Source of the DNA: an uncultured Gammaproteobacteria bacterium
GTDB lineage: Bacteria; Pseudomonadota; Gammaproteobacteria; Pseudomonadales; UBA5518
Direction: 5' to 3'
DNA length: 64,000 nucleotides
Assembly: GCA_903928015.1 (NCBI GenBank)
Contig: CAIYPF010000056.1
Span: 1-64,000, forward strand
Shown here: positions 43,653 to 61,267 of the stretch, piece after piece
Layout of the letters: each line of letters opens with the position of its first letter
How positions within the stretch are numbered: position 1 is the first letter of the stretch
The notes under the pieces: generated by a model
Databases searched by the model: none
What the model saw: only the letters and a program-made list of their open reading frames with translations
Told to the model about the DNA's origin: nothing
Translations under genes and position numbers: made by a program

Positions 43653-43686
43653 AGCGACGTGCCCAGACACATCGACGGAGACTCGC

Positions 43687-45366
43687 ATGCTGACGCTGAG
43701 CGAAGCCACCGGCTCCACCCGCGAACCCCTGCTCGAGATCACGATCGGGGACGCCTTCAAGGGCACGGCCGAGCGCTATCCGGATCATCTCGCACTCGTC
43801 GTGCGCCATCAGGGTATCCGCTGGACCTGGGCCGAGTACGCGCGCGAGGTGGACCGTCTGGCCGCAGGTCTTCTGACGCTGGGCATCGTTCCCGGCGACC
43901 GGGTGGGGATCTGGTCACCCAACCGCGTCGAGTGGTGCCTTGCGCAATTCGCTACCGCGCGCATCGGCGCGATCATGGTCTGCGTGAACCCCGCCTACCG
44001 CCTCTACGAACTCGAGTACGCGCTGAACAAGGTGGAGTGCAAGGCACTGATCACCGCCGAGCGCTTCAAGAGCAGCGACTACCTGGGCATGCTGCAGACG
44101 CTGGCACCGGAACTGTCGCGCTGCGCGCCCGGTCACCTCGATTCGCATGCGCTGCCGCACCTGAAAACCGTGATCCGGTTGGGCGAGGAACGCACCGCGG
44201 GGATGTTCAATTTCGATGCGGTCTGCGATGTGGGCACCTCGGATCTCGCACAGATCGGGATCGTTGCCCGGAACCTGCACGCCTCTGACCCGATCAACAT
44301 CCAGTTCACCAGCGGCACCACCGGCAACCCCAAGGGCGCCACGCTCACCCACCGCAACATCCTGAACAACGGCATGATCCTCGGCGACTGCATGCGGCTC
44401 ACCGGGAACGACCGCCTTTGCGTACCCGTGCCGCTGTACCACTGCTTCGGCATGGTGATGAGCAACCTCGCCTGCATGACACACGGGAGCGCGACGGTGT
44501 TCCCGGGCGAGGGCTTCGATGCGCTCGCCACTCTGGAAGCCGTCGCCGAAGAGCGCTGCACGGCCTTGCACGGCGTGCCGACGATGTTCATCGCGGAGCT
44601 CGAGCACCCGCGCTTCGGCGACTTCGACCTCTCTTCCCTGCGCACCGGCGTGATGGCGGGTTCGCCCTGCCCCGTCGAGATCATGAACAAAGTGATCTCG
44701 CAGATGCATATGTCGGAGGTCCTGATCGCCTACGGGCAGACCGAAACCAGCCCCATCAACCACATGACTGCCATCGACGACCCGATCGACAAGCGCGTCG
44801 GTACGGTCGGACGCCCTGCAGCCCACTGCGAAATCCGCATATGCGGCCCCGACGGACACACGCTCCCCGTTGGAGAGCACGGCGAAATCTGCTGCCGGGG
44901 CTACAGCGTGATGGAAGGGTATTGGGGCGACGAGGAAAAAACGCGCGAGACCATCGACGCGGAAGGCTGGCTGCACTCCGGCGATATCGGCGTGATGGAT
45001 GAGGGCGGTTACACACAGATCACCGGCCGCATCAAGGACATGGTCATCCGCGGCGGCGAGAACGTGTACCCGCGCGAGGTCGAGGAATTCCTTTACCGCC
45101 ACCCGTCCATCCTCGACGTGCAGGTATTCGGCGTACCGGACGTCAAATACGGCGAGCAACTGTGCGCGTGGATCCGCACGCGTCCGGGCGCCAGCCTCAC
45201 GGCAGCAGAGGTGCAGGAGTTCTGCCGCGACCGGATCACGCACTTCAAGATTCCGCGCCACATCCGCTTCGTCGAGGAATTCCCGATGACGGTGACGGGC
45301 AAAGTGCAGAAGTTCCGCATGCGCGAGGAGATGGCCGCGGAACTGGCCGGGGGCAGCGACGCGTGA
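43687..45366 (+). CDS. Fatty-acyl-CoA synthetase (AMP-forming, ACSF2-like)
   Basis: A 559-residue ligase. The ATP loop FTSGTTGNPKG is near 206-216, YGQTETSP and GRIKDMVIRGGENVYPREVEEF follow, and the C-terminal TVTGKVQKFRMRE carries the catalytic lysine. The overall pattern matches long-chain/ACSF2-like enzymes. Together with the preceding ligase it offers two acid specificities. The ATG at 43687 is preceded by GGAG; its TGA overlaps the GTG of the TetR gene. Confidence 0.92.
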   Translation: MLTLSEATGSTREPLLEITIGDAFKGTAERYPDHLALVVRHQGIRWTWAEYAREVDRLAAGLLTLGIVPGDRVGIWSPNRVEWCLAQFATARIGAIMVCVNPAYRLYELEYALNKVECKALITAERFKSSDYLGMLQTLAPELSRCAPGHLDSHALPHLKTVIRLGEERTAGMFNFDAVCDVGTSDLAQIGIVARNLHASDPINIQFTSGTTGNPKGATLTHRNILNNGMILGDCMRLTGNDRLCVPVPLYHCFGMVMSNLACMTHGSATVFPGEGFDALATLEAVAEERCTALHGVPTMFIAELEHPRFGDFDLSSLRTGVMAGSPCPVEIMNKVISQMHMSEVLIAYGQTETSPINHMTAIDDPIDKRVGTVGRPAAHCEIRICGPDGHTLPVGEHGEICCRGYSVMEGYWGDEEKTRETIDAEGWLHSGDIGVMDEGGYTQITGRIKDMVIRGGENVYPREVEEFLYRHPSILDVQVFGVPDVKYGEQLCAWIRTRPGASLTAAEVQEFCRDRITHFKIPRHIRFVEEFPMTVTGKVQKFRMREEMAAELAGGSDA

Positions 45367-46019
45367 GCACCTCGACGGCGCGCAAGCCGGCAGCGAAGGC
45401 CGTACCGGGCACCTATGCAAAAGGTCGCACCCGCGCCGAAGACATTCTCGACGCAGCCGTCACCGTTCTCATAGAACACGGATACCACAACTTCTCGCTG
45501 CGACGCGTTGCCGAGGAGGCGGAGCTGCGGCTCGGCAACCTGCAACACTATTTTCCGAGCAAGGACGCGCTCGTGCAGGCCATGCTCGATCGCGTGATCG
45601 AGGCCTATCTGGCACGGTTGGGACGCATCCAATCGAGCGGGCTCGATCCGGAGGCCCAATTCCGCAAGATCATCGAAACCCTGTTCCTCGATCTGAACAC
45701 CCGCCGCACCACCGTTTTCTTCCCCGAGCTCTGGTCGCTGGCCAACCATGACGCCCATGTCGCCGGCTACATGGAACGCATGTACGGGCGCTACCGCGAA
45801 CTTCTGGGCGCATCGATCGCGCGGGTGAATCCCGCGCTGGACGAAAGGCAGGTTCGGCAGATCGCGCTGTTCATCTCCGCCTCGATCGAGGGCCACACCA
45901 TGTTCGTGGGCCACCGCAAACCCTGGCGCGCGCAGACCAAAGAGATTCTTGCACTCGCGACCGCGTCTTTCCTGTGGCTGATACGTTCCGGAGAAGTGCC
46001 GGTCATGCAGGACACATGA
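45363..46019 (+). CDS. TetR-family transcriptional regulator
   Basis: A 218-residue repressor-type protein. The N-terminal helix-turn-helix is clear (FSLRRVAEEAELRLGNLQHYFPSKDAL, described here by its core near residues 45-70). The start GTG overlaps the acyl-CoA synthetase stop (GTGA), so it probably controls its own operon and, being directly upstream of qhpA, possibly the amine dehydrogenase genes. Ligand unknown; acyl-CoA or an amine would suit the context. Confidence 0.9.
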   Translation: MSTSTARKPAAKAVPGTYAKGRTRAEDILDAAVTVLIEHGYHNFSLRRVAEEAELRLGNLQHYFPSKDALVQAMLDRVIEAYLARLGRIQSSGLDPEAQFRKIIETLFLDLNTRRTTVFFPELWSLANHDAHVAGYMERMYGRYRELLGASIARVNPALDERQVRQIALFISASIEGHTMFVGHRKPWRAQTKEILALATASFLWLIRSGEVPVMQDT

Positions 46020-46111: not shown

Positions 46112-47716
46112 GTGAAGAAAGCGAACATCTGGCCGGCCCTGTGCCTCGCACTCGTGCCATTCCTGCCGGCGCAGGCCAACGAGGCGCTGCTGAGGCACAA
46201 CTGCGGCGCCTGCCATGGCGATCCGGCCAACCCGGAGGCTCCTCTCAGCAGGATCAGCGAACAGCGCAAATCCCCGGAAGGCTGGGAGATGACGCTGCAC
46301 CGCATGCAGACCATTCACGGCGTGCAGCTCTCCGACCCAGAGGGAAAGTCCGATTCCGCCGGCGTGCTGTTCCAACTGGTGAAGTACCTCTCCGACACGC
46401 ATGGAATCGCTCCCGCAGAAACTGCCGGGCTGCGCTACACGCTGGAGCGCCGGCACAATGCCGTCGACATCCCCGAGGACGCGGAGTACGCGGTGATGTG
46501 CACGCGCTGCCACTCCAACGCGCGTGTCGCCCTGCAGCGCCGCACGGAGCCCGAGTGGCGCAACCTCATCCACTTCCACCTTGCACAGTTCCCCACCACC
46601 GAGTACCAGATCGGCGGGCGTGACCGCGAGTGGTTCCCGATTGCCATCGATCGCACCCTGCCAAAGCTCGCGGCCGCCTATCCGCTGCAGACACCGGAGT
46701 GGGAGGCCTGGCAGAAAGCCGCCAAGCCGGCGCTCGCAGGTCGGTGGAGGGTCACCGGAAGGATGCCGGGCAAGGGTGATTTCAACGGCATCATGACGGC
46801 AGAAGCGGGAGATGCGGATTCCTATTCCGTCTCTCTCGTGGGCGAATTCAGCGGCGGCGAGCCGCTGCACGTCGACGGGCACTCCGTGGTGTACACGGGC
46901 TTCGAATGGCGCGGGAATCTCGAGACCGACAGCGAGCACTATCTGCAGGTGCTGGAAGCCAGCGCCGATGGCAGCGCACTCTCCGGACGGATGTTTCCCT
47001 TCGACCATCCCGAGCGTGGCATTGATCTTCAGGCCCGCCGCGATGATGGCACCCCCAGACTCCTCGCCGTGTCCCCCGCCCAATTGAAGCGCGGCAGCAC
47101 AGCGACCCTCACGCTCTCGGGCAGCGCACTCGCGGGTGCGCCTCAACTCGGCGCAGGCCTGAAGGTGGAGCGCATCGTCTCCCGCGACGCGGATCGCCTG
47201 GTCGTGGAGGCAAGCGCCGCGGCCGACGCAGATGTCGGTGCACGCGCGATTGTCGTCGGCAAGGCATCCCTGCCGGCCGCACTCACCGTCTTCGATGCCG
47301 TTGACCGCGTGGAAGTCTCCCCTGCCTACACGGTGGGTCGCGTCGGCGGCAGCGAAGGCTCGCAGCCCGAGGTGCAGGGACGTTTCGAGGCCATCGCCTG
47401 GGCCAACGGACCTGACGGCGCGGCCGGCACCGCTGACGATCTGCGCATCGGACCGGTGAAGGCGCAATGGTCGGTGGCCCCCTGGAACGAGAAAGCCGCA
47501 GAGGACGGTGACCTGCGGTTCGCGGGCACGATGGACAAGGACACCGGCATCTTCACGCCCGCCTCCGCCGGCCCCAACCCCGAGCGCAAGCAGGGCACCA
47601 ACAACGCGGGCAACCTGAAAGTCATCGCAACCGTCGGCGAGGGTGAGGCGGCGGTGCGTGGCGAGGGCCAGCTGCTTGTAACGGTGCAGCGCTGGGTCAA
47701 CCCGCCGCTCTGGTAA
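46112..47716 (+). CDS. qhpA: Quinohemoprotein amine dehydrogenase alpha (diheme) subunit
   Basis: The 534-residue alpha subunit of periplasmic QHNDH passes electrons from the quinone cofactor through two c-type hemes. A signal peptide ends PAQAN. Heme motifs are CGACH (31-35) and CTRCH (130-134). After them come the family beta-barrel domains ending QRWVNPPLW. The start is GTG at 46112 with GAGGGA upstream. In Pseudomonas putida U the homologue is PeaA for 2-phenylethylamine. It begins the row qhpA-D-C-B with gaps of 18, -4 and 10 bases. Confidence 0.97.
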   Translation: MKKANIWPALCLALVPFLPAQANEALLRHNCGACHGDPANPEAPLSRISEQRKSPEGWEMTLHRMQTIHGVQLSDPEGKSDSAGVLFQLVKYLSDTHGIAPAETAGLRYTLERRHNAVDIPEDAEYAVMCTRCHSNARVALQRRTEPEWRNLIHFHLAQFPTTEYQIGGRDREWFPIAIDRTLPKLAAAYPLQTPEWEAWQKAAKPALAGRWRVTGRMPGKGDFNGIMTAEAGDADSYSVSLVGEFSGGEPLHVDGHSVVYTGFEWRGNLETDSEHYLQVLEASADGSALSGRMFPFDHPERGIDLQARRDDGTPRLLAVSPAQLKRGSTATLTLSGSALAGAPQLGAGLKVERIVSRDADRLVVEASAAADADVGARAIVVGKASLPAALTVFDAVDRVEVSPAYTVGRVGGSEGSQPEVQGRFEAIAWANGPDGAAGTADDLRIGPVKAQWSVAPWNEKAAEDGDLRFAGTMDKDTGIFTPASAGPNPERKQGTNNAGNLKVIATVGEGEAAVRGEGQLLVTVQRWVNPPLW

Positions 47717-47734: not shown

Positions 47735-49165
47735 ATGGGCATCTTCCACCTGCAGGCGCACAACCTCCACGAGATAGAGGTGGATTCGCGGCGCCTGCTG
47801 TTCCACATACCGAGCAGCGCACTCTTCGAGGCCGACGACCTCACCGGCGCGCTGATCGCGGAGCTCCGCGGGCAGGAGGGCAGGAGCCTCGAAGACCTGC
47901 AGGACCGCCTGGGAACCCGCTTCGGCTGCGCGGAAATCGCCACCGCAGTCGATGAATTGCAGGATCTCCAGATACTCCGCGCCGAAGGGGCCACCGTCTC
48001 GACCAGCCGCCCTCGAGTGAGCAGCCTGCCGCTCACAACGGTGGTGCTGAACGTCAACACCGGCTGCAACCTGAGCTGCACCTACTGCTACAAGGAAGAC
48101 CTGGACACCCCGGCCAACGGCCGCAAGATGAGCTTCGAAACCGCACAGCAGTCCGTAGAGATGCTGCTGCGCGAATCCCCCGACCAGCCCCGCTACACCA
48201 TCGTGTTTTTCGGTGGAGAGCCACTCACCAACCTGCCGCTGATCCGGCAAGTGGTGGAATGGGCCGAGCCGCTCTTCGCCGCACGCGGCAAGCGGCTGGA
48301 TTTCTCGATCACCACCAACGCCACACTGCTGGACGAGCAGAACATCGCATTCCTTCAGGCACACCGCTTCAGCATTGCAGTGAGCATCGACGGCCCCAAG
48401 GCCGTGCACGACAGGAACCGCGTGACCGTAGGCGGCCAGGGCACCTATGAAACCGTTGCCCGCAAGGTGCGCCTGCTGCTCGGCAGCTACCGCGCACGGC
48501 CGGTGGGAGCGCGCGTGACCCTCACCCGCGGCACCACGGACATCCTCGGCATCTGGGATCACCTCTTCAACGAACTCGGTTTCGCCGAGGTGGGTTTCGC
48601 GCCGGTCACGGCCGGCGACGTGGCGGATTTCAACCTCACGGGTGAGGAACTCTCTGCCGTGTTCACCAGCATGAAAGCCCTGGGCGAGCGATACGTGGAC
48701 GCGGCCTGCGCAGGGCGCAACATCGGCTTCTCGAACCTGCACCAGTTGCTCACCGACATCCACGAGGGCGCCAAGAAAGCCCTGCCCTGCGGCGCCGGAT
48801 ATTCGATGGTGGCGGTGGACCGCGAAGGCGGAGTGAATCTCTGCCACCGCTTCACGGGCTCGGAATTGCCGACCTTCGGCAACGTGGAGTCGGGCCTCGA
48901 CCGCGCAGCGCTGGGCAGCTTCCTCGAGCAGCGCCTCGACCGCAGCAACACCGGCTGCGACACCTGCCGGATACGTAACCTCTGCTCTGGCGGCTGCTAC
49001 CACGAAAGCTACCAGCGCTACGGCGATCCCGCGCACCCCACGTATCACTACTGCGACCTGATGCGTGACTGGGTCGATTTTGCTATCAGTGCCTATGCAC
49101 GCATCCTTGCAAGCAACCCCGGATTCTTCAGCACCCACCTCGCCCCACGGAGGGCCCGGTCATGA
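47735..49165 (+). CDS. qhpD: Radical SAM maturase for QHNDH gamma subunit
   Basis: A 476-residue radical SAM/SPASM enzyme that makes the intra-peptidyl thioether (Cys to Asp/Glu) bonds in the gamma subunit. An N-terminal peptide-binding region precedes CNLSCTYC (C111, C115, C118), which binds the radical SAM cluster. The C-terminal SPASM cysteines are in [15 protein letters not shown] and YHYC. The stop overlaps the qhpC ATG (ATGA), fitting enzyme and substrate being made together. Confidence 0.97.
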
Positions 49166-49488
49166 AACACCTGAAACCGCTGAACGCAAAAGCAGAACTC
49201 ATGGACGCTGCAAACAACCCCGAGGCGAAAGCCGAAGTGGTTGCCATGCAGACCGTGGTCGGCTGTGCCTCCACCACCGATCCGGGGTGGGAGGTCGACG
49301 CCTTCGGCGGCGTGGCAGGGCTCTGCCAGCCGATGGAGGCGGACCTCTACGGCTGCGCCGATCCGTGCTGGTGGCCGGCACAGGTGCCCGACCTCATGAA
49401 CTCCTATCCGGACTGGGATCAGAACGCGCAGTCCGCCGGCACGGACTGGCGCAAGCTCGACGCCGTGTTTCCCAAGGCCCGCGACTGA
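49162..49488 (+). CDS. qhpC: QHNDH gamma subunit carrying cysteine tryptophylquinone
   Basis: The 108-residue catalytic subunit precursor. Taking the 28-residue leader known from Paracoccus, the mature numbering reproduces every modified residue: Cys7-Glu16 (C35, E44), Cys27-Asp33 (C55, D61), Cys41-Asp49 (C69, D77), and the cofactor pair Cys37-Trp43 (C65, W71). The leader [20 protein letters not shown] shows no Sec or Tat signal, as expected for a peptide cut off by QhpE after modification. Family identity is certain. Confidence 0.97.
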
Positions 49489-49498
49489 GGCAATCCGG

Positions 49499-50611
49499 AT
49501 GCGTCACCACTTCGCAACATCGTTTCGCGCGGCGCTCGTAGCTGCGGCGCTCCTGCCCATGCTGCTCGCAGGCTGTGCCAAGCCCGCGAAGGATTACATG
49601 GCCATCCCCAACCGCCCCAACCAGGTCAGCCTGATCGATCTGGAAGAGCGCAAGGTCGTGCGCACCTGCCCTCTGCCCGGGCGCTACGGTTCCGGCACCT
49701 TGCAGATGTCGCCCGACAAGCGCACGGCCTATGTGCTCAGCAACCAGTTCGAAAACATCTACGGCGTCAACCTCGATACCTGCGAGATCACCTTCTCGGC
49801 GATCCAGAGCGAGGGCAACACCCGCATCAAGACCACCGCCGCCTTTGCTGTAAGCGCGGACGGCACAGAACTTTATGTGCACCAGAATCCTTCACTGCTT
49901 CTGCGTGACCGTTACGAGGTACAGGAACCACGCGTAGCGGTCTACCGCATCGCCGACGGGCTGAAGGCCAAACCGGTACGCAGCTTCCCGGCCCCGCGCC
50001 AGGTGATCCTCATGCAGACGGATGCCAAGGGCACGCTCTATCTCGCGGGCCGGGACATCTACACGATGGACACCGCCACGGGCGCTTACAGCGTGAAGCT
50101 GGAGAGCCAGACCCGGAAGGAAGCCCGCTACGGTCAGCGCGACGTGCTCTCGATCTGGCCGCTCGGACAGCAGTCAAACGAGTTCATCCGCATGTACACC
50201 GTGCAGCGTTTTGCCGATGAAACCAGAAAGCCGGAAACCGCGGAGTTGATGTGGGGCTACGAGCGCATCGATCTTGCCACTGGCGAGGCGACCACACGTG
50301 ATTTCGGTCCGCTGAACGTGGTGCTCTTCTCCGGCATGACGCGCCCGCACCACCCGAACGAAATGTTCGGCGCGCTCTCGCAGCTGCAGAAATTCGATGT
50401 CGAGAAACAGCAGCTGATCAAAAGCGTGGATCTTGAGCACAGCTACTACTGCGTGAACTTCTCTACCGACGGTTCCAAGGTCTATCTCTCCGGCACCTTC
50501 AACGACATCGTGATCTACGACGCCGAAACACTGGAGAAGCTCGGCAATATCCAGCTCCCCGGCGGCGACATGTCCCTCGCCACCGCGCAGGTCTTCCCAC
50601 GCGCCCCGTAG
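49499..50611 (+). CDS. qhpB: QHNDH beta subunit (beta-propeller)
   Basis: The 370-residue beta subunit forms a seven-bladed propeller around the gamma subunit. A lipobox-like LLAG-C26 ends a hydrophobic signal, so it may be a lipoprotein or simply secreted. Repeated blade segments such as AYVLSNQFENIYGVNLDT, VYLSGTFNDIVIYDAETLEKLGNIQLPGGDMS (motif ends) are visible. Its TAG stop lies inside the first of three REP-like repeats. Confidence 0.95.
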   Translation: MRHHFATSFRAALVAAALLPMLLAGCAKPAKDYMAIPNRPNQVSLIDLEERKVVRTCPLPGRYGSGTLQMSPDKRTAYVLSNQFENIYGVNLDTCEITFSAIQSEGNTRIKTTAAFAVSADGTELYVHQNPSLLLRDRYEVQEPRVAVYRIADGLKAKPVRSFPAPRQVILMQTDAKGTLYLAGRDIYTMDTATGAYSVKLESQTRKEARYGQRDVLSIWPLGQQSNEFIRMYTVQRFADETRKPETAELMWGYERIDLATGEATTRDFGPLNVVLFSGMTRPHHPNEMFGALSQLQKFDVEKQQLIKSVDLEHSYYCVNFSTDGSKVYLSGTFNDIVIYDAETLEKLGNIQLPGGDMSLATAQVFPRAP

Positions 50612-50768: not shown

Positions 50769-52412
50769 ATGAACCCCGCTGAACTGCTACGCCCGCACCG
50801 GACAGCGATCGGCGGCCTCGTCCTGCTGTCGCTGGGCGTCTCGTCGCTCGCCCTCGCGCAACCCTGGCTGACCAAACTTCTTATCGACGAAGGCCTTCTG
50901 GCAAAAGACTTCGATGCCGTGCTGCGCTGGGCGCTCGCGCTGCTCGGCGTATCGGTGCTCGCCTCTCTCGCAACGGGCTTCAACCGCTGGTGCTACACGC
51001 GCCTCTCCGGACGCATCCTCTTCGCACTGCGCGAGCGCGTGTATGCACACCTGCAGCGCCTCTCCCCCGCCTTCTACGCACGCAACCGCGGCGGCGACAT
51101 CCTCGCCCGCCTGGACGGCGACGTGGCCGAAATCCAGCGCTTCGCGCTCGACAGCCTGTTCGCCGGCGTCAGCGGGGTATTCGGCCTGATCGGCACGCTC
51201 AGCTTGATGCTGATGCTGAGCCCCGCGCTCTCGCTGCTGGCGCTCGCGGTGGTGCCGCTCGAGTGGTTCTGGCTGCGCGCAATGCGAGCCCGTGTGCGCG
51301 AGCGTGCTGGCGAAGTGCGCGCCAACGCGTCCGACATCTCTGCCTTCCTGGTAGAGACACTGCCCGCGATGAAACAGATCCAGGCAGCGGCGGCCACGGC
51401 GCGGGAGCGCGAGCGGCTTGGCCGCCTCAACACGGCCTATCTCGCAGGGCTGCTGCGCCTGCAACTCACCGAGTTTGCTACGGCGGCCGTGCCGCAAGGC
51501 CTGAGCTCCGTCGCGCGCGCGGGGGTCTTCGTCGCAGGCGGATGGGAGGTGGTGAACGGGCGCATGGCACTCGGCTCTCTGATCGCCTTCGCGAGCTATC
51601 TGGGCATGGCGATGGGCCCCGTGCAGAGCCTGCTCGGCGTGTACATGGGCTTCAACCGCGTCAAGGTAAGCCTGGATCGCGTGCGCCATCTGACCGATGC
51701 GCAACCCGACGTCGCGGACACAGGTTCGCACCCGCCACCGTCCCGCCCTCCTCTCATCCGTTTCGAGAACGTCGGCTTCGGCCATGGCAGTGGAGATCCG
51801 CTGCTGCGCGATATCAGCCTCGATATCCCTCCGGGCAGCAGGGTCGGTCTCTGCGGACCCTCGGGAAGCGGCAAGACCACGCTCGCGGATCTTCTGCTGC
51901 GCCACTTCGACCCGCAGTCCGGCCGCATCCTGCTCGACGGCACGGACCTGCGTGAGCATGCCCTGGAACCGTGGCGCAGGCGCGTGGCACTGGTGAGCCA
52001 GGAGGTCGTGCTGTTCCGTGGCTCGATACTCGAGAACCTGCGTCACGCGAACCCCGCGGCGAGCGAGCAGGAGGCGCAGGCCGCAGTGGGCCGCGCCCAG
52101 TTGCAGGACTTCGTCTCACGGCAGCCTGAGGGCATCCACACCCAGATCGGCGAGCGCGGCGCGCGGCTCTCGGGCGGAGAACGCCAGCGCCTCGCCATCG
52201 CGCGTGCGCTGCTGCAGGACCCTCTCCTGCTGATCCTTGACGAAGCCACCTCCGCACTCGATCCGGCTACCGAGCAGGAACTGCTCACGGCGCTGGACGG
52301 GCTTTTCCCCGGGGTCACGCGCATCGTGGTGAGTCACAGGGAAAAACCGTTGGAAACGGCCGACATCCTGCTCGAACTGCGCGACGGCGCGTTGCGCCGG
52401 ATGGACGCATGA
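50769..52412 (+). CDS. qhpF: ABC transporter required for QHNDH assembly
   Basis: A 547-residue half-transporter: six hydrophobic segments in about residues 15-300, then an ATPase domain with Walker A GPSGSGKTT (about 364-372), signature LSGGERQR (about 467) and Walker B LLILDEATSALD (about 487). In Paracoccus the QhpF transporter is needed to export the modified gamma subunit, which has no ordinary signal. It overlaps qhpE by four bases. Confidence 0.93.
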   Translation: MNPAELLRPHRTAIGGLVLLSLGVSSLALAQPWLTKLLIDEGLLAKDFDAVLRWALALLGVSVLASLATGFNRWCYTRLSGRILFALRERVYAHLQRLSPAFYARNRGGDILARLDGDVAEIQRFALDSLFAGVSGVFGLIGTLSLMLMLSPALSLLALAVVPLEWFWLRAMRARVRERAGEVRANASDISAFLVETLPAMKQIQAAAATARERERLGRLNTAYLAGLLRLQLTEFATAAVPQGLSSVARAGVFVAGGWEVVNGRMALGSLIAFASYLGMAMGPVQSLLGVYMGFNRVKVSLDRVRHLTDAQPDVADTGSHPPPSRPPLIRFENVGFGHGSGDPLLRDISLDIPPGSRVGLCGPSGSGKTTLADLLLRHFDPQSGRILLDGTDLREHALEPWRRRVALVSQEVVLFRGSILENLRHANPAASEQEAQAAVGRAQLQDFVSRQPEGIHTQIGERGARLSGGERQRLAIARALLQDPLLLILDEATSALDPATEQELLTALDGLFPGVTRIVVSHREKPLETADILLELRDGALRRMDA

Positions 52413-53071
52413 TCCGGGTAGGCATCGCCGACAGCGGCGTGGACGGGCCGGCACGCAAGAGCGTGATCGCCCGCGCGGATTTCGGCTTCAGCGGCAAGCC
52501 CGGCACGCTCCAGGATGCGCCGCGCGATCGCGCCGGGCACGGCAGCGCGATCGCGGCGGTGATCGCGGGGATCGAGGGCGTGGAGTTGCTGGATGCGCGC
52601 ATCTTCGACGCGGAACTGCGCACCAGCGCCGCGCAGGCCGCAGCCGCGATCGACTGGCTCGTGACGCAGGGCGCCCGGATTCTCAACCTGAGCTTCGGCC
52701 TGCGCGAAGACCGCGCGCTGCTGCGCGAGGCATGTGCACGCGCGATCGATGCGGGCGTGTTGCTGGTGGCCTCGTCTCCGGCGCGCGGGGCCTCGGTGTT
52801 TCCCGCGTCATACCCCGGCGTGCTGCGCGCCACGGGAGACGCCCGCTGCGCTCCTGGCGAAACATCCTGGTTGGGCACGCAGCAGGCCGATGCCGGCGCC
52901 GCGGTGCGCACGCCATGCGGCAAGGTGGCAGGTGCCAGCGCGGGCTGCGCCCATGTCAGCGCGGCGCTGACCAGATTGATGCTCCAGCAGCCCTCTGCAG
53001 GCCGGGAGGAACTGCTGGACGCCTTCAGGCGCGGAGCGCACTACCACGGTGCGGAACGGCGCACGCAATAA
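52409..53071 (+). CDS. qhpE: Subtilisin-like protease that removes the QhpC leader
   Basis: A 220-residue short subtilase without a signal peptide or propeptide, so cytoplasmic. The triad is visible as D8 (GIADSG), H44 (AGHGS) and S177 (GASAGCAH, in place of GTSMAAP). In QHNDH systems QhpE cuts the 28-residue leader after QhpD modification. The oxyanion asparagine region reads ASSPARG, which is not canonical. The ATG overlaps the qhpF stop. Confidence 0.93.
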   Translation: MIRVGIADSGVDGPARKSVIARADFGFSGKPGTLQDAPRDRAGHGSAIAAVIAGIEGVELLDARIFDAELRTSAAQAAAAIDWLVTQGARILNLSFGLREDRALLREACARAIDAGVLLVASSPARGASVFPASYPGVLRATGDARCAPGETSWLGTQQADAGAAVRTPCGKVAGASAGCAHVSAALTRLMLQQPSAGREELLDAFRRGAHYHGAERRTQ

Positions 53072-53170
53072 CCCGGGCAGGAACCCAGGCGCGCCGAGTG
53101 CTGCGCCATCGTTCCATGATCGACAAAATGTCGGCATGCTTGGCCCCGATCCTCTCCCGGAAGCAATCCC

Positions 53171-54421
53171 ATGAAACGCCGCGACATGATCCGCACCGCC
53201 GTGGGTGCCGCAACCGTTCTGGCAGCAGCCGCTGAAGCCGCCTCCGCCGTGCAGACACCGACGGCTGCCGCGAGCAACGGCATCGCCGATGTCGCCGTGA
53301 TCGGCGCTGGCGTCTTCGGCGTGTGGACCGCCGAACACCTGCTGCGCGCGGGGCGCTCGGTAGTGCTGCTCGATGCCTGGGGGCCGGGACACAGCCGCGC
53401 GACCTCGGGCGGCGAGACGCGCCTGATCCGCATGAGCTACGGCGCGAACGAGCTCTACACGCGCTGGACGATACGGGCGCTGGAGGAGTGGAAAGCACTC
53501 GGCAGGGACTGCGGAGAACCGATCTTCAACCGCACGGGCGTGCTGCGCATGGGCCCGGCCGGATTTCCCTACATCACGGAGTCCGAGAAAACCCTCAAAA
53601 CACTCGGCGTGCCCTTCGAGCATCTGGACGCCGCAGCGCTCGCGCAGCGTTTTCCGCAGATCGGCATGGAGCAACTGGGGGCAGGACTGTTCGAGCCCGA
53701 CAGCGGCGTGTTGCTCGCACGTCGTGGCATACAGGCCGCTGCAGAGCGCTGCAGCAAACAAGGGGCCATCGTGCGGGTCGATGCCGCGCTGCCGCCCACG
53801 GGGCGCGGTGAAGTCCGGGAGCTCTCCACCGCCTCGGGCGCCAGCGTCCGCGCCAGGCAATTCGTGTTCGCGTGCGGGCCGTGGCTGCCGAAGCTGTTTC
53901 CCGAACTCCTCGGCAAACTCATCACGGTGCCGCGAGCCGAAGTTTTTTTCCTGGGACTGCCGGGCGGAGACCGGCGCTTCGCGGCGCCTGACATGCCGGG
54001 CTGGATCGACGAGACCTCCGACACCTACGGCACACCCGATATCGAGTACCGCGGCTTCAAGGTCGGCATTGATCCGCCCCGCGCCCCCTTCGACCCCGAC
54101 ACCGCCGTGCGCGTGGTCTCGGAGGAATCCATCGCGCGCATGCGCGCCTATGTGCGCAAACGCTTCCCGTCACTCGCCGAAGCGCCGATCGTCGAGACAC
54201 GCGTCTGCCAGTACGAAGAGACAGCGAGCGGCGATTTCCTGATCGACCGGCACCCGGATTTCGGCAATGTGTGGATCGCCGGTGGCGGCTCCGGGCACGG
54301 CTTCAAACTGGGGCCATCGGTGGGCCAATACGTGGCCGAGCGGGTCTTGCGCGGCGACGCGCCTGACACGCGTTTTGCCATAGCCACACATCAGCGCGGA
54401 GCCCGCCGCGCAGTGGATTGA
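53171..54421 (+). CDS. Exported sarcosine oxidase/N-methyltryptophan oxidase-like flavoprotein
   Basis: A 416-residue FAD-dependent amine oxidase of the monomeric sarcosine oxidase (MSOX/SolA) type. VIGAGVFG (44-51) binds FAD. The segment RVCQYEETASGDFLIDRHP puts C346 at the place of the cysteine that binds FAD covalently in MSOX, and GSGHGFKLGPSVG follows as in the family. Unlike SolA it begins MKRRDMIRTAVGAATVLAAAAEAAS, a twin-arginine-like export signal. It may therefore oxidise or N-demethylate amines in the periplasm beside QHNDH. It lies 99 bases after qhpE. Confidence 0.85.
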   Translation: MKRRDMIRTAVGAATVLAAAAEAASAVQTPTAAASNGIADVAVIGAGVFGVWTAEHLLRAGRSVVLLDAWGPGHSRATSGGETRLIRMSYGANELYTRWTIRALEEWKALGRDCGEPIFNRTGVLRMGPAGFPYITESEKTLKTLGVPFEHLDAAALAQRFPQIGMEQLGAGLFEPDSGVLLARRGIQAAAERCSKQGAIVRVDAALPPTGRGEVRELSTASGASVRARQFVFACGPWLPKLFPELLGKLITVPRAEVFFLGLPGGDRRFAAPDMPGWIDETSDTYGTPDIEYRGFKVGIDPPRAPFDPDTAVRVVSEESIARMRAYVRKRFPSLAEAPIVETRVCQYEETASGDFLIDRHPDFGNVWIAGGGSGHGFKLGPSVGQYVAERVLRGDAPDTRFAIATHQRGARRAVD

Positions 54422-54429
54422 AGGCGCTG

Positions 54430-55224
54430 TCAGCCCGCGTCCATCCACTCGGGCAGCGTGGCCAATTGCGGCCGGAACCACGCGATCATCCTGCCGCAAG
54501 GTGGTGCCACCGCCCCCTCGGCCCACGGCGCCATTCCGTGTAGCAGCTGCCGGTGGAACAGGCATGCCTCGCCAGGCTGGAGTTCCAGTACGACACGCGG
54601 GCAGCGCGCGAATACCTCCCTTCGCGCATCGGCATAGAGGGCTGTGAGATCAATCTCTGCCCACCGCTCGGGCGCCACGCCGCAAAAGGCACGCAAGAAG
54701 GTCTCGCGCATGATCGTGTGGGAGCCTTCCCACACCACCGTGGGTGAGGCGCCGCCCTGACCCGTCGCAAGCGGCAAGCCGAGAATCCACGCGTGCGGCT
54801 CACGCAGAAAACGCTGCCTGGGCGCGCCCTCCGCCAGCAGGCCGTCGACGTGCGCGGCATCACGGTCACGGCGGAACGCGAACGCCGCCTCGCTCTCCCC
54901 CTCCATGGGTTGCGGATATCCGGGGTAACAGATCGAGATCTGCGCACGGTGCAGGGGCAGCGCGGGCGAGATGTGCGCTCGTATGAACTCCCGTGCGGCG
55001 CCGGCAAGCGCGGGCCCGCATCCGACGCGGCCGTCGGCGTCATTCGGCAGCGCGTCAACGCCAACGAACCAGCTGCCTCCACAGCGAAGCCAGTGTGCAT
55101 TCGCAGGATCTGCGGCCGCATCGAGCGCCACCGGAAACGCATGCGCGGCCCAGGCAAGCACCGAGGACTCCGCAGGAAAACGCAGCCAGCCGCTATGGCG
55201 GAACAGTGCGACTGGATCCGTCAT
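54430..55224 (-). CDS. Putative Fe(II)/2-oxoglutarate-dependent dioxygenase
   Basis: A 264-residue protein with the facial-triad pattern of phytanoyl-CoA-dioxygenase-like enzymes: H125-x-D127 in DAAHVDGL, a distal histidine around H224-H229 in LFHRQLLHGMAPW, and an arginine after it (GRMIAWFRP) to hold 2-oxoglutarate. No signal peptide. It would hydroxylate an unknown substrate. The ATG at 55224 was preferred to a TTG at 55236; neither has a strong ribosome-binding site. It sits in a three-gene minus-strand group with the FrnE-like gene and qhpG. Confidence 0.65.
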   Translation of the reverse strand: MTDPVALFRHSGWLRFPAESSVLAWAAHAFPVALDAAADPANAHWLRCGGSWFVGVDALPNDADGRVGCGPALAGAAREFIRAHISPALPLHRAQISICYPGYPQPMEGESEAAFAFRRDRDAAHVDGLLAEGAPRQRFLREPHAWILGLPLATGQGGASPTVVWEGSHTIMRETFLRAFCGVAPERWAEIDLTALYADARREVFARCPRVVLELQPGEACLFHRQLLHGMAPWAEGAVAPPCGRMIAWFRPQLATLPEWMDAG

Positions 55225-55247
55225 GGATGACTGCAAGAAGCTCTGGC

Positions 55248-55944: not shown

Positions 55945-57297
55945 CTAGTGCGAAGAGTGCTCTCGCACAGCCTGGATCCCGTGACGATTGAACCAGGCCT
56001 GCACCTGCTGACGCTGGAGGGGTGCGGGAGCCGCCTCGGCGATTCTTGCCTCGAGCAGCGCTGCGCGCTCGGCGGGCGACTCGGGCAGATCGCGGAGCAA
56101 TGGCGCCACCGCCACGCCCTCGACACGCCAGACACCGAGCGGTTGCCCGGTGGTGAGCAGCACCTCGCGTTCACGGATGAGTCCGTCCTCGATCACCGGC
56201 CGCAGCGCCGCCCCCTCGATGCGTTCGGGTTGCACATGCGCGGCGAGCGCATCCGGCCAGAGTGAACGCTCTCGCCAGAAGGATGCGTCGGACCAGCGTG
56301 TTTCAGCGGCATGAAAGTCGCGCCCGATCCGCGCGAAACGCAGGAATGTTTCCTGGAGCCGCGACGAATGGAACGCCACCGCGAGTGCGGCATCGTCCGG
56401 CGCGCGGAGCAGCGTGTTGATCACGGCGGGCGCGGTTGTGGCAGACGAGAGTGACTGGAAGATTCCGTTGCCGGAGAGCGGGTCCACCGCCATGGCGGCG
56501 TCTCCCACGCGCAGGACCCCCCGCTCCCACGGACGGGCGTGGAGCATGGCGGTACTGGCGCGCGCTGCCGGCGGGCCCTCGGTCACGCAGCCCTCGAGCC
56601 ATGCAACAGCAGCGGGCAGCGCGGCAATGCGCGCCCGCGCCCAGTCCGCAAGCCCCGACCGCTTCGGCAGGCCGGGGGTATCTGCAGCCACGCACAGCTG
56701 CACGTAGCGTTGCCCGCCGGCGAGCCGCGCCAGCCAGACCCAGCCCTCGGCGCAGGCAAACACCGCAGAGCCGGGCTGGACCTCAGCCCCCCGCGCGCTC
56801 TGCAGCACCGCCAGCGTACCCGGACCGCGAAGCCCCACACCCCTGCCCTGCGGCGCCGCGCGCCCGCGCGCTTCCACCACCACGCGGGAGCGCAACACCG
56901 TGCCGTCTGCCAGCCGCAGGCCGGGTGTGTGCTCGTCGTGCAGCACAGCAGCAATGCGCGCCTCGAGCACGCGCACGCCGGACTGCTGAAGATCCTCAAT
57001 GAGCGCAGCGTCGAAGCCGGGACGCCAGAGCAGGCTCTCCATGTTCCTGGCGAGGCTCTCGCCGTTCCAGTCCACTACCCGCAGACCCGGCGGAGGAATC
57101 TGCTCCAGTGCCCTGCGAAAACCCGATTGCCGCAGCCCGTCGACCACGCGGCGGGAAATCCCTTCGCAGGCATCGAAGGGCCGCGGCACGCCCACCACAC
57201 AGACGCCATAGCCGAGCCGCGCGAGGCCGAGCGCTGTCGCAGCGCCTGCAGGTCCTGCGCCGGCGACGAGCACATCAGCATGAAGGGCGTGGGGCAA
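55945..57297 (-). CDS. qhpG: FAD-dependent monooxygenase for CTQ formation
   Basis: A 450-residue flavoprotein: DVLVAGAGPAGAAT (8-21) binds FAD and GVLRVGDAAMAVDPLSGNG (about 263-281) is the second FAD motif of the hydroxylase family. In QHNDH biosynthesis QhpG hydroxylates the gamma-subunit tryptophan that becomes CTQ. Here the start is uncertain: the first in-frame start codon is TTG at 57297, with no ATG upstream before non-coding sequence. The gene is on the opposite strand to qhpA-D-C-B-F-E, unlike the usual collinear order. Confidence 0.85.
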   Translation of the reverse strand: MPHALHADVLVAGAGPAGAATALGLARLGYGVCVVGVPRPFDACEGISRRVVDGLRQSGFRRALEQIPPPGLRVVDWNGESLARNMESLLWRPGFDAALIEDLQQSGVRVLEARIAAVLHDEHTPGLRLADGTVLRSRVVVEARGRAAPQGRGVGLRGPGTLAVLQSARGAEVQPGSAVFACAEGWVWLARLAGGQRYVQLCVAADTPGLPKRSGLADWARARIAALPAAVAWLEGCVTEGPPAARASTAMLHARPWERGVLRVGDAAMAVDPLSGNGIFQSLSSATTAPAVINTLLRAPDDAALAVAFHSSRLQETFLRFARIGRDFHAAETRWSDASFWRERSLWPDALAAHVQPERIEGAALRPVIEDGLIREREVLLTTGQPLGVWRVEGVAVAPLLRDLPESPAERAALLEARIAEAAPAPLQRQQVQAWFNRHGIQAVREHSSH

Positions 57298-57532: not shown

Positions 57533-57991
57533 TCACTCGCTGAAATCGAGCGACATCCTGTTTCCGCCCATGTGCTCGAGCAGTTCGATCACATTGCCGA
57601 AGGGATCACGCCCGTAGGCAAAACGGTGCGGCGACTCACCGAAGGGCTGCGTGTTGAACGGCACACCGGCCGCAAGCAGCACGGCGTGATCCGCATCGAA
57701 GTCATCAGTGGCGAGGGCGATATGCGAGATGCCCGTGCGGTTCACCGGGCGCAGCGGATCGCCCGCTTCCCGCTCTTTGAATTCGAAGAACTCGATGCAG
57801 GAGTTGCCCTTGCGGAGCATGCGGATCTTGCACGCGGAATCGGCGAGCCCCAGCGCGCGGGCCATGGGCTCCCAGCCGCTCGGGAGTTCCGCATCCATCA
57901 CGACGCGGAAGCCAAGCACACCGCAGTAGAAATCGAGAGCCGTCTGCATATCGGGCACGGCGAGCGCGGGGTGGTGCAGACCAAGGATCAT
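57533..57991 (-). CDS. Glyoxalase/VOC-superfamily protein
   Basis: A 152-residue protein with two beta-alpha-beta-beta-beta repeats of the VOC fold. LHHPALAVPDMQTALDFYCGVLGF opens the first (about residues 5-28), GISHIALATDDFDADHAVL the second, and DPFGNVIELLE ends the metal site region. Such proteins are lyases, dioxygenases or isomerases; the substrate is unknown. It is the last gene of the mau/aau row, nine bases after the cytochrome c stop. Confidence 0.87.
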   Translation of the reverse strand: MILGLHHPALAVPDMQTALDFYCGVLGFRVVMDAELPSGWEPMARALGLADSACKIRMLRKGNSCIEFFEFKEREAGDPLRPVNRTGISHIALATDDFDADHAVLLAAGVPFNTQPFGESPHRFAYGRDPFGNVIELLEHMGGNRMSLDFSE

Positions 57992-58000
57992 GAGGTGAGC

Positions 58001-58444
58001 TCAGTAGGTCGTGGGGATGCCGGCTGCTGCAGCAAGAGGGGTGCGCGCGGCCTGCACATTGTCCAGCGGCCTGGCGGCGCGCGCCCGCGCCACTTCTGCG
58101 GCATCGAAGGGAACGAAACCCTCGGGCAGGCCGCGCGGATCGAGCGTGGCCAACATCCAGTTGTAGACGCGCGCGAGTCGCTGGTCGTCGAGCGCGGACA
58201 AGGAGGCACCCGGCACCCGAAGCAGGAATTCCCGGCCACCAGGCGTGCCGAGCAGAGCCCGCATGGACACGCGCAAATCGGGAACCTTGCCGGGATACCC
58301 GCTGCCGTCGCCCACATGGCAACCCTGACAACGCAGGATGTAATCGACCTGCGGGCTCTCGTCAGCCCGCAGCCCGGCCGTCGGCATCAACAGCGCCGCG
58401 GAGGCAAGTAGCGCGCACAGCACGAAACGCCTCACAGCGGCCAT
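58001..58444 (-). CDS. Periplasmic monoheme c-type cytochrome
   Basis: A 147-residue protein with a signal peptide ending near GLRA and a single heme site C39-x2-C42-H43 (CQGCH). It lies five bases downstream of the amine dehydrogenase light chain gene, where the Alcaligenes faecalis aromatic amine dehydrogenase cluster also has a small cytochrome gene. It is the likely electron acceptor or relay. It has one heme, so it is not the diheme MauG. Confidence 0.9.
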   Translation of the reverse strand: MAAVRRFVLCALLASAALLMPTAGLRADESPQVDYILRCQGCHVGDGSGYPGKVPDLRVSMRALLGTPGGREFLLRVPGASLSALDDQRLARVYNWMLATLDPRGLPEGFVPFDAAEVARARAARPLDNVQAARTPLAAAAGIPTTY

Positions 58445-58449
58445 GGCGC

Positions 58450-58977
58450 TTACTTCTTGGGGTCGATCGCCAAGCCCACCACGATGGCAGTGGAGCAGTT
58501 GTAGATCGCGCTCTTGGTGCCGAGGCACCAGTTGAGGTCGTTCGAGAGATCCGGGCGGTAGATCGGACGGTCGATCTTGTTCGCATTGCAAAGGCAGGTG
58601 CCGCAGGAGCTTTTGCCGCAGCAGTCGTTGTAGGAAATGATGTAGTGCTTGCCGTCTGCGGGATTCAGGCAGGTGCCGATCCAGGTGATCGGTGACATCT
58701 CGGTGCCGGGCGGGCACTCGTTCTGGCTGCCGCCACAGCAGGAGCAGAGGAATCCGTCGATGGCGCAATAGCGCCAGTAGTCGCAGGAGGCGGGATCGCC
58801 CGGGTCCGCCGGCATACCCGGTGCGCCGTCCGCGGCCGAGGCGCGAGCCACCGGCAGTAGCGGCAACGCTGCAGTGCCCACCAGCATGGATCCCAGCCCG
58901 CGCAGCACGCCACGGCGGGAGCTGTGCTGCGCCACGCGCCTTGCGCTGCCTTCCATCAGTTTGTCGAGCCAGTTCAT
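58450..58977 (-). CDS. mauA: TTQ-bearing amine dehydrogenase light (small) subunit
   Basis: A 175-residue precursor with a Tat-type signal (SSRRGVLRGLGSMLVGTAALP) and the cysteine-rich core of methylamine/aromatic amine dehydrogenase small subunits. W99 (SPITWIGTC) and W150 (NDLNWCLG) are 51 apart, as in the TTQ pair Trp57-Trp108 of Paracoccus. D118 and D74 match the catalytic Asp76 and Asp32 by spacing. The ATG overlaps the mauD stop. The gene order B-E-D-A followed by a cytochrome resembles aauBEDA of Alcaligenes faecalis, so aauA is an equally fair name. Confidence 0.95.
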   Translation of the reverse strand: MNWLDKLMEGSARRVAQHSSRRGVLRGLGSMLVGTAALPLLPVARASAADGAPGMPADPGDPASCDYWRYCAIDGFLCSCCGGSQNECPPGTEMSPITWIGTCLNPADGKHYIISYNDCCGKSSCGTCLCNANKIDRPIYRPDLSNDLNWCLGTKSAIYNCSTAIVVGLAIDPKK

Positions 58978-59570
58978 CTGCCTGATCTCCCCACGTATTC
59001 TTGGATGGATGCCACCTTGCGCTCCTTGGCCTCGAACAGGCTGTCCAGGTGTTCGCGCGAGTTCACGATGCCGAGCGAGGCGATGCGCCCCTGCTCGTCG
59101 ACAAGTACGCCGTAAGGCAGCTTTGACACACCGTAGCTGCGGCCCAGCACTTCCGATAACAGATACGGGTAGCCCTCGAGCCCGTGGCGGCGCACCAGCT
59201 CGGCGTGCAGCGTGGTGTCCCCGTCGCTGGCGAAGACCAGATCGAGCCAGTCGCGCTCCGCGCGCGCTGCGGAAAGCAGAGCGGGCAGCAGCGATTTGCA
59301 GAGCGGGCAATCGGGCGCGAGGAAAAACAGCAACTGGCTGCGGCCCGCTGCGGGGACGCCGGCCTCGAAGGTGCCGCCGTCCAGACGCGGTGCCGGGACC
59401 CGCGGAGCCTCCTGCCCCACGCCAAGTTTGCGGTTGAGCATCAGTGCGCCTGCAGGCGCAACGCGCTCGTAGAGAACGCCGATCTGCCGCACCAGCGCGA
59501 AGATCACCACCGCCATCACGAGCACCACGATCCACAGCAGCACGGAGGACACGAGCAGCGCCTGGTTCAT
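58974..59570 (-). CDS. mauD: Amine dehydrogenase maturation protein MauD
   Basis: A 198-residue membrane-anchored thioredoxin-like protein: one N-terminal membrane segment (about 7-28) and the redox motif C88-P-L-C91 in LFFLAPDCPLCKSLLP. MauD is needed to form the six disulfides of the light chain. It overlaps mauE upstream and mauA downstream by four bases each. Confidence 0.95.
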   Translation of the reverse strand: MNQALLVSSVLLWIVVLVMAVVIFALVRQIGVLYERVAPAGALMLNRKLGVGQEAPRVPAPRLDGGTFEAGVPAAGRSQLLFFLAPDCPLCKSLLPALLSAARAERDWLDLVFASDGDTTLHAELVRRHGLEGYPYLLSEVLGRSYGVSKLPYGVLVDEQGRIASLGIVNSREHLDSLFEAKERKVASIQEYVGRSGR

Positions 59571-60106
59571 CGCAGGCGCTCCAGCAACTGACGGTTGGCA
59601 AGCAGGCCGTTCACGCTGGCGTAAAGCAGCGCCACGACCGCGGCGCAAAAGAGCGCGAACAACCAGCCCGACCAGTGGGAGGGCACGGCCGGAGAGGCCG
59701 CAGCGACGAGGGCGGCGGCGACGAGAAGGGCGTTTCGCATGGGCAGCGCGACACTCAGGCGCTGCGACTGCCCCGTCCCTGCGCAGCCGCAGTCGATATC
59801 ACGGCGCCCACGCAGGAGATTGACCGTGATCGCCACGCCATAGGCGCCGATGATCGCCGCAGCACAAAGCAAGGCCGGCACCCGGGCAAAGGGCAGGAGC
59901 AGGAGTACTGCGAGCGCCACCTCGAACACCGCGAGCGGCCGCGCGAGCAAGGCGCCCGCACCGTCCGGAAGCAAGCGGTAGTCGTCGATATGCGCCGCGG
60001 TGAGTGCCACGTCGCGCAACTTGCCGAGACCGGCGTCGAGCAGCACCCAACCGAGCAGCAGGACGAGGCCGAGCGCGATCACGGGATCCACCATGGGCAG
60101 TGTCAC
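59567..60106 (-). CDS. mauE: Amine dehydrogenase maturation membrane protein MauE
   Basis: A 179-residue integral membrane protein with about four or five hydrophobic segments (about 9-27, 58-75, 79-97, 123-143, 147-163) and the loop DIDCGCAG. The pattern is that of MauE, which works with MauD on light-chain folding. The start is GTG at 60106, three bases after the heavy-chain stop; an ATG four codons on (60094) is possible. Confidence 0.92.
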   Translation of the reverse strand: MTLPMVDPVIALGLVLLLGWVLLDAGLGKLRDVALTAAHIDDYRLLPDGAGALLARPLAVFEVALAVLLLLPFARVPALLCAAAIIGAYGVAITVNLLRGRRDIDCGCAGTGQSQRLSVALPMRNALLVAAALVAAASPAVPSHWSGWLFALFCAAVVALLYASVNGLLANRQLLERLR

Positions 60107-60109
60107 GTC

Positions 60110-61267
60110 TCAGGGTGCAGGGAAGACGAGGAACGGCGTCTCGGCGCCGAAATCTGCAAGCGTGCGGAGCCATTGGCCACTCAGCGCGTCGTAGACGTCC
60201 AGCACGAAGGCGCCCGTCTCGTTGTTGCCCACAGCGACCATCAGGGGCTTGTCGTCACGGGTAAGCATGATCGACATAGCCGGATGCTTCAGCGTGATAC
60301 GCCGCTCGCGCTTCTTCGAGGCGGGGTCGAAAACCCAGGCCTCGGTGCCGGAATCCTGGTGCGAGGATTTCTCGCCCTTCACATGGAAGAGCATATAGAT
60401 CCTGCCCGTGGAATCGGTGTCGAGGAACTGCCAGCCGCCAGGGCGCCAGCCGGCCTCGCGGTCTGCAGCGTCGAGCAGGGACCAGGGCTTGCCCGGCTTG
60501 GCAACGTCACCGCGGAAATCGACGGGCAACATCTGGCCACCAAAGGTCGGGAACCAGCCCATGCCGGCGTGCCGCGCGGGCTTCTCGAACAGCGGATCGG
60601 CCTCCACGTCCAGGGCCGGCTTGCCCCGCACTTCTTTCTTGAGCTTGCCGTTCTCGTCGAGTTGCACGCTGAAGAAAGCGCCGTCGGCGCAGAGCGAACT
60701 GAAGCCGCGCTTGCCAGTGGGGTACATGAGCGCGCAGCCGGGAATCGGCACCTCGGTGGCGATGGCGCGCTTCTCGAGATCCACCACCCAGACCGAACTG
60801 CCCGGGTTGAAATTGAACGACAGCGCGAAGCGGTCGTCTCCGATCACCTGCACGGCGTGCACCTGCGGCAAGCCGCTGAAACGCTTGCCGCCCGGCAAGA
60901 CCACCTCGCCCGTCGGCGCCAGGGTGGACTGGTCGTAGATAGTGAAGACGTCGGTGCGCTCACCGCGCTGGCCGCGGGAATAGAAACTCTCCGAGACGTA
61001 GAGTTCCTTACGCGCACGCGAGGTCGCGAACCCGCCCATGAAGCCATGGTTGATCATGCCCTTGTACTGGGCTGCGCCGGTTTCGGCGTCCGCGTCGAGC
61101 ACCACCACCTTGCCATCGCTCATGTGGAAGAACGCCCCGTCGTGGGCGAGGATCCAGTGCGGCGGATACGGCGCCGGCAGCGTGCGGATGATGCCGGTCT
61201 TTTCTGCGGGCAACTCGGCATGCACGAGCGCGGCTCCGAGCAGCAGGAGGCCGATCCACTTCTTCAT
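60110..61267 (-). CDS. mauB: Quinone amine dehydrogenase heavy (large) subunit
   Basis: A 385-residue beta-propeller subunit with a signal peptide (MKKWIGLLLLGAALVHA). Family segments include GWFPTFGGQMLPVDFRGD, WRPGGWQFLDTD and repeated VWVVDL, VFDPASKK and VLDVYDA blades. It pairs with the TTQ light chain in the periplasm. It is the first gene of the row mauB-E-D-A-cytochrome-VOC, with GAGGAA eight bases before the ATG. The sequence alone does not settle methylamine versus aromatic amine; the neighbourhood favours aromatic (aauB). Confidence 0.93.
   Translation of the reverse strand: MKKWIGLLLLGAALVHAELPAEKTGIIRTLPAPYPPHWILAHDGAFFHMSDGKVVVLDADAETGAAQYKGMINHGFMGGFATSRARKELYVSESFYSRGQRGERTDVFTIYDQSTLAPTGEVVLPGGKRFSGLPQVHAVQVIGDDRFALSFNFNPGSSVWVVDLEKRAIATEVPIPGCALMYPTGKRGFSSLCADGAFFSVQLDENGKLKKEVRGKPALDVEADPLFEKPARHAGMGWFPTFGGQMLPVDFRGDVAKPGKPWSLLDAADREAGWRPGGWQFLDTDSTGRIYMLFHVKGEKSSHQDSGTEAWVFDPASKKRERRITLKHPAMSIMLTRDDKPLMVAVGNNETGAFVLDVYDALSGQWLRTLADFGAETPFLVFPAP

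Follow-up and report, generated by a model that had tools for sequence, protein, structure and literature searches.

What does an oxidase with an export leader do at the end of a QHNDH gene cluster? The question is raised by a locus in a 64,000-nucleotide stretch of DNA from an uncultured gammaproteobacterium (referred to here as the window), for which a preliminary description had proposed that an exported sarcosine-oxidase-like flavoprotein demethylates N-methylated amines that QHNDH then deaminates outside the cytoplasm. The underlying sequence observation, that of an MSOX-like flavoprotein with an export leader, stands in all the details open to checking; the cascade proposed on top of it is a different matter.

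RESULTS

The flavoprotein gene and its surroundings

The flavoprotein ORF is exact and complete, encoding 416 aa between an ATG start and a stop codon (Table 1). Its placement within the QHNDH region holds, as the gene lies on the same strand as qhpE, 99 bp past it, and closes a complete qhpADCBFE run. The Qhp proteins scanned are all over the NCBIfam cut-offs except QhpF, a generic ABC transporter. A convergent neighbour (54430-55236, minus strand) ends 8 bp from the flavoprotein gene, and neither promoters nor terminators were found in 52300-54700.

Table 1. Features of the qhp cluster and of the flavoprotein gene, in window coordinates
Feature	Coordinates	Strand	Basis
qhpA, QHNDH alpha subunit	46112..47716	+	TIGR03908, 650.5 bits
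qhpD, radical SAM maturase	47735..49165	+	TIGR03906, 716.6 bits
qhpC, gamma subunit	49162..49488	+	NF037958, 169 bits
qhpB, beta subunit	49499..50611	+	TIGR03907, 412.4 bits
qhpF-like ABC exporter	50769..52412	+	Position; ABC exporter families below cut-offs
qhpE, leader protease	52409..53071	+	NF049966, 240.9 bits
MSOX/SolA-like FAD-dependent amino acid/amine oxidase with export leader	53171..54421	+	
Predicted leader of Tat type (residues 1-26), with RR at codons 3-4, a hydrophobic core and a cleavage-like A-S-A end	53171..53248	+	
R84 and R87, counterparts of R49 and R52 in MSOX (side chains for flavin and substrate)	53420..53431	+	Alignment
K297, equivalent to MSOX K265 (oxygen activation site)	54059..54061	+	Alignment; role from the available text of PMC6222107
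D301, at the position of MSOX H269	54071..54073	+	Asp in 77/80 family loci
C346, equivalent to MSOX C315 (covalent FAD)	54206..54208	+	Alignment
K379, equivalent to MSOX K348 (carboxylate anchor, flavinylation)	54305..54307	+	Alignment; role from the available text of PMC6222107
qhpG, flavin monooxygenase	55945..57297	-	NF049967, 470.8 bits

The 268-aa product of the convergent gene is conserved in genomes G008 and G140 (about 76-79% identity), and the gene was not seen in the other QHNDH loci examined outside the genus. Neither Pfam nor NCBIfam matches the protein at E <= 0.001, and its best PDB match is at E 0.12; by eye, the stretches AAHVDG and LLHGMAPW...GRMIAWFRPQ suggest a possible iron/2-oxoglutarate dioxygenase. 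On the other side of the cluster, 5' of qhpA, two acyl-CoA-synthetase-like genes and a TetR-like regulator (names given by eye) occupy 42033-46019 on the plus strand, and relatives of the gene at 42033 and of the regulator also adjoin qhp genes in G114 and G135.

A TTQ amine dehydrogenase cluster (58450-61267) lies 4 kb beyond the flavoprotein gene. Its heavy chain scores 155.2 bits as aromatic amine dehydrogenase versus 127.2 as methylamine dehydrogenase, and its light chain 161 versus 151.7 bits. The minus-strand region 57533-61267 carries genes for the light chain, a MauD-like protein, MauE and the heavy chain, together with a glyoxalase-family gene and an ORF with a CxxCH motif (58001-58768) that gave no Pfam match for this frame. 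Besides QHNDH, TTQ light-chain genes (PF02975 over cut-off) number four in G008 (at L122, L124 and two more places) and two in the window's genome (L120 in G000:C184); three of the six genomes of the genus have a TTQ light chain of any kind.

Family membership and active-site residues

The closest match in a phmmer search of the PDB is MSOX (1l9c, E 2e-44), followed by SolA/MTOX (2uzz, E 2.9e-32), and PF01266 (DAO) is well over its Pfam cut-off (176.5 versus 27.9 bits). An AlphaFold model built from 19 sequences (mean pLDDT 85, with residues 1-35 under 50) superimposes on MSOX with a Z score of 44.7 and an rmsd of 2.4 over 368 residues, and on MTOX with a Z score of 42.1 and an rmsd of 2.4 over 362. 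The best NCBIfam score, that for the N-methyl-L-tryptophan oxidase equivalog NF008425, falls short of its cut-off (231.8 versus 257 bits; 238.1 bits for the sister copy), as does that for TIGR01377 (soxA_mon; 198.9 versus 479.65 bits). With both named oxidase models missed, we label the protein MSOX-like rather than a sarcosine oxidase, and its substrate may be unlike either sarcosine or N-methyl-L-tryptophan.

Residues were counted in an alignment of the window protein and 80 homologous loci, the best 80 of 261 confirmed relatives (44-88% identity, in 79 genomes), with MSOX and E. coli SolA; in MSOX numbering, R52 and K348 are the carboxylate pair. The equivalents of R49, R52, K265, C315 and K348 are present in the window protein and in all 80 of these loci, so that the cysteine for covalent FAD is indeed kept, as had been described. 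Among the same best 80 of 261, the position of MSOX H45 is Gly in 77 and that of H269 is Asp in 77, and on this alignment the uniform replacements mark a distinct, so far unnamed subfamily; the change of H269 to Asp could accommodate a cationic substrate.

The two carboxylate-free substrates that had been put forward, N-methylphenylethylamine and N-methyltyramine, are to be set against the roles of these residues in related enzymes. In the available text on FsqB, an Arg/Lys pair binds the carboxylate of the substrate, as it does in MTOX, MSOX and NikD, and mutagenesis assigns reoxidation by O2 to one lysine and substrate binding to the Arg/Lys pair, the lysine of which is also needed for covalent flavinylation (PMC6222107). 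The residue set as a whole is in keeping with an oxidase that binds FAD covalently and acts on N-substituted amino acids, and the invariant basic pair would favour such compounds and argue against N-methylamines that have no carboxylate, although the conservation of the K348 equivalent is by itself no proof of a carboxylate substrate since that residue also serves flavinylation. Sarcosine, which was also on the list of proposed assays, fits better than the carboxylate-free amines.

The leader and its start codon

The leader, MKRRDMIRTAVGAATVLAAAAEAASA, has a twin arginine followed by a mild core rich in alanine, and ends in A-S-A. It is recognized by a loose twin-arginine rule, whose hit rate is 2.9% when the upstream codons of the window itself are shuffled. 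At the sister locus L020, the DNA 5' of the ATG barely aligns with that of the window and identity begins at the ATG; the twin arginine is kept, core residues are constant despite third-position changes, and the linker past ASA diverges again. A ribosome-binding-like GGAAG lies 7 nt 5' of the ATG at codon 1, and the following ATG in frame, that of codon 6, has no GGAAG ahead of it. The start of identity and the GGAAG both favour codon 1 over a downstream start that would remove the leader. A TatC gene is present in the window's genome. PF10518 (TAT_signal) does not match the window's leader and gives 11.2 of the 22.7 bits required with that of L020, and none of the curated Tat HMMs is over cut-off, so that the claim of export rests on the motif, its conservation and the family pattern. 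On these grounds export via Tat, as was proposed, is likely.

It is quite unlikely that the leader fails to work as a Tat signal, whether because translation starts at codon 6, because the Sec route is used or because the protein is cytoplasmic. The codon 6 ATG is conserved in L020, the Tat HMMs stay below cut-off and 43 of the best 80 of 261 relatives are called leaderless, all of which speak for such a reading; against it stand the GGAAG preceding codon 1 only, and the retention of the twin arginine in L020 with divergence of the linker immediately after ASA.

Predicted export across the subfamily

A twin-arginine leader was called in 37 of the 80 loci (best 80 of 261), where codon shuffles lead one to expect 1.59, the count being a rough one since the rule misses plausible leaders at L032, L044, L055 and L094 (judged by eye) and includes a doubtful one at L072. 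The phylogeny of leader-bearing homologues suggested earlier was constructed, and the leader recurs across it with at least 13 changes of state, at least seven of them forced by starred branches, on a tree made by a quick method with 32 open forks and long branches at L098 and G332/G436, and from which G130 was left out. From the number of leaders and the forced changes, export is evidently common and labile in this subfamily, with repeated gain or loss of the leader. The view that the MSOX/SolA group is normally cytoplasmic thus stands for E. coli SolA, which is without a leader, and fails for the subfamily represented in the window.

The subfamily extends over the Acidobacteriota, Methylomirabilota, sphingomonads, gammaproteobacteria and others, its members being mostly from the Acidobacteriota and Proteobacteria. 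No paper on an exported sarcosine-oxidase-type enzyme was found in a search of mainly open-access literature, and a survey of plasmid-borne relatives returned 103 records, all below 60% identity (35.5% for the first), with no nearer kin.

Linkage to QHNDH

Among the best 80 of 261 relatives, qhp genes are near the flavoprotein gene only at L020, in the same genus, a count to be read with the fact that the flanks of many of the 80 loci end at contig ends. No recurrent operon partner was found in these loci within four genes per side under a simple ORF rule, and the largest clusters of neighbours cover 9 and 7 of the 80, in mixed positions and strands. Conversely, the flavoprotein gene is at none of eight other QHNDH loci of the order that were examined outside the window's genome and G140, one of which (L101) ends at a contig edge. 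The sister genome G008, rated 100% complete, has qhpADCBFE and qhpG, with 60 bp and nothing else between qhpE and the convergent gene, and encodes the flavoprotein nowhere at E <= 1e-20.

In rpoB the two carriers, the window's genome and G140, are each other's closest match (86.1%, versus 84.6% to G113; G008 rpoB was not found), so that the pattern is explained by a single gain on the stem they share or a single loss in the other lineage. On this comparison the placement after qhpE goes back to an event restricted to part of a single genus, and the flavoprotein gene is evidently not needed for QHNDH. QHNDH alpha is over cut-off in 14 of the 79 family genomes (7/50 and 7/29) and QHNDH in 9 of the 145 genomes of the order, so that the family may be loosely associated with QHNDH, neither phylum nor genome size being allowed for in the comparison. 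The neighbourhood looks like a local matter of gene order, not the sign of a common pathway.

Electron acceptor

In the available text on the unrelated FAO superfamily, members with a Tat leader and an adjacent cytochrome c gene are dehydrogenases (PMC12224317, PMC9396064), and those with a Tat leader and no such neighbour are mostly periplasmic oxidases that react fast with O2 (PMC12224317). Among the best 80 of 261 relatives, a CXXCH protein is a neighbour at 4 of the 37 leader loci versus 1 of the 43 leaderless ones, and no clear dedicated small cytochrome c was found beside the 37. By the FAO criterion, and with the O2-site lysine kept, the subfamily looks like one of periplasmic oxidases. 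The QHNDH alpha subunit carries two c-type haems in characterized enzymes, according to the available text of PMC7876137, and its presence in the same run of genes, which sets the window locus apart from the rest, keeps the cytochrome option open there.

DISCUSSION

We consider the protein to be a Tat-exported, H2O2-forming oxidase of secondary amino acids, tied to QHNDH by neighbourhood only, and put the probability of this reading as a whole at about 0.6. From family, catalytic residues, leader, conservation and distribution, all read from the sequence, we infer Tat export, flavinylation, O2 as acceptor and the class of substrate. The MSOX-type enzyme would fold and bind FAD covalently in the cytoplasm, after which Tat would carry the folded flavoprotein out. 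Its substrate in the periplasm would be a secondary amino acid, N-methyl or N-alkyl, with the carboxylate gripped by R87 and K379; the imine formed on oxidation would hydrolyse, the reduced flavin being reoxidized by O2 at the K297 site with formation of H2O2. The enzyme would share a compartment, and possibly a transcript, with QHNDH.

Other roles have been weighed against this. It is unlikely that the flavoprotein is an exported dehydrogenase with a periplasmic cytochrome c as its electron acceptor, in the manner of NicA2 and Pnao; Tat-exported flavin amine enzymes that use cytochrome c are known from the available literature, and both the QHNDH alpha subunit and the CxxCH ORF are nearby, but the O2-site lysine is kept in 80 of 80 loci (best 80 of 261) and the leader-bearing members have no gene for a dedicated cytochrome c as a recurrent neighbour. 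The cascade of the preliminary description, in which periplasmic demethylation of N-methyl-aralkylamines by the exported enzyme yields primary amines for deamination by QHNDH, is likewise doubtful, also with the nearby aromatic-amine-dehydrogenase-like TTQ enzyme in place of QHNDH. The compartments would match, the gene follows qhpE closely on the same strand with no terminator-like site in 52300-54700, and the TTQ cluster lies close by; linkage, however, is seen in one genus only, G008 has its qhp cluster without the flavoprotein, and the R52/K348 carboxylate pair is invariant (80/80). A broader version, in which an oxidase lineage moving repeatedly between cytoplasm and periplasm was captured into a periplasmic amine-oxidizing island of QHNDH and the TTQ enzyme, and demethylates N-methylated amines or amino acids there with electrons going to local c-type haems instead of O2, is a speculative and improbable one.

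The position right after qhpE might also suggest a QHNDH maturation factor, for instance for a last periplasmic oxidation of the quinone cofactor. This candidate was rejected, and is highly improbable, given QHNDH clusters without the flavoprotein in G008 and, elsewhere in the order, at six loci from five genomes, and the 65 of 79 family genomes that have no QHNDH over cut-off; in the available text, the published set qhpABCDEFGR has no counterpart of the flavoprotein (PMC7876137).

The point worth keeping exceeds the locus, and is the unnamed MSOX-like subfamily with its apparent repeated gain or loss of export. If the secondary-amino-acid oxidase reading is right, sarcosine-oxidase-type chemistry, with demethylation of N-substituted amino acids and release of H2O2, would go on beyond the cytoplasm of many bacteria, the sphingomonads and other Proteobacteria and the Acidobacteriota making up most of them. 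A second family would then parallel the flavin amine oxidoreductase superfamily with its Tat-exported branches, and the exported and non-exported relatives within it would offer a natural set for asking why an oxidase is moved outside.

Comparison with known systems

MSOX (the SoxA/SoxB type) shares with the flavoprotein its fold, the cysteine for covalent FAD and R49, R52, K265 and K348, but the two are about 30% identical and differ in the export leader and in the replacement of H45 by Gly and H269 by Asp. The conserved Arg, Lys and Cys residues are also found in SolA (MTOX), although E. coli SolA is without a leader and keeps both His residues. The fungal N-methyl-dopa/N-methyl-tyrosine oxidase FsqB and the fructosyl amino acid oxidases resemble the flavoprotein in having PF01266 and the charged active-site set, the sequence match of the fructosyl oxidases being mainly C-terminal, whereas an export leader, which the flavoprotein has, is not among the features described in the available text on them. 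NicA2 and Pnao are described in the available sources as Tat-exported flavin enzymes that oxidize amines in the periplasm, but these belong to a different flavoprotein superfamily (FAO) and have as their acceptor a cytochrome c encoded next door.
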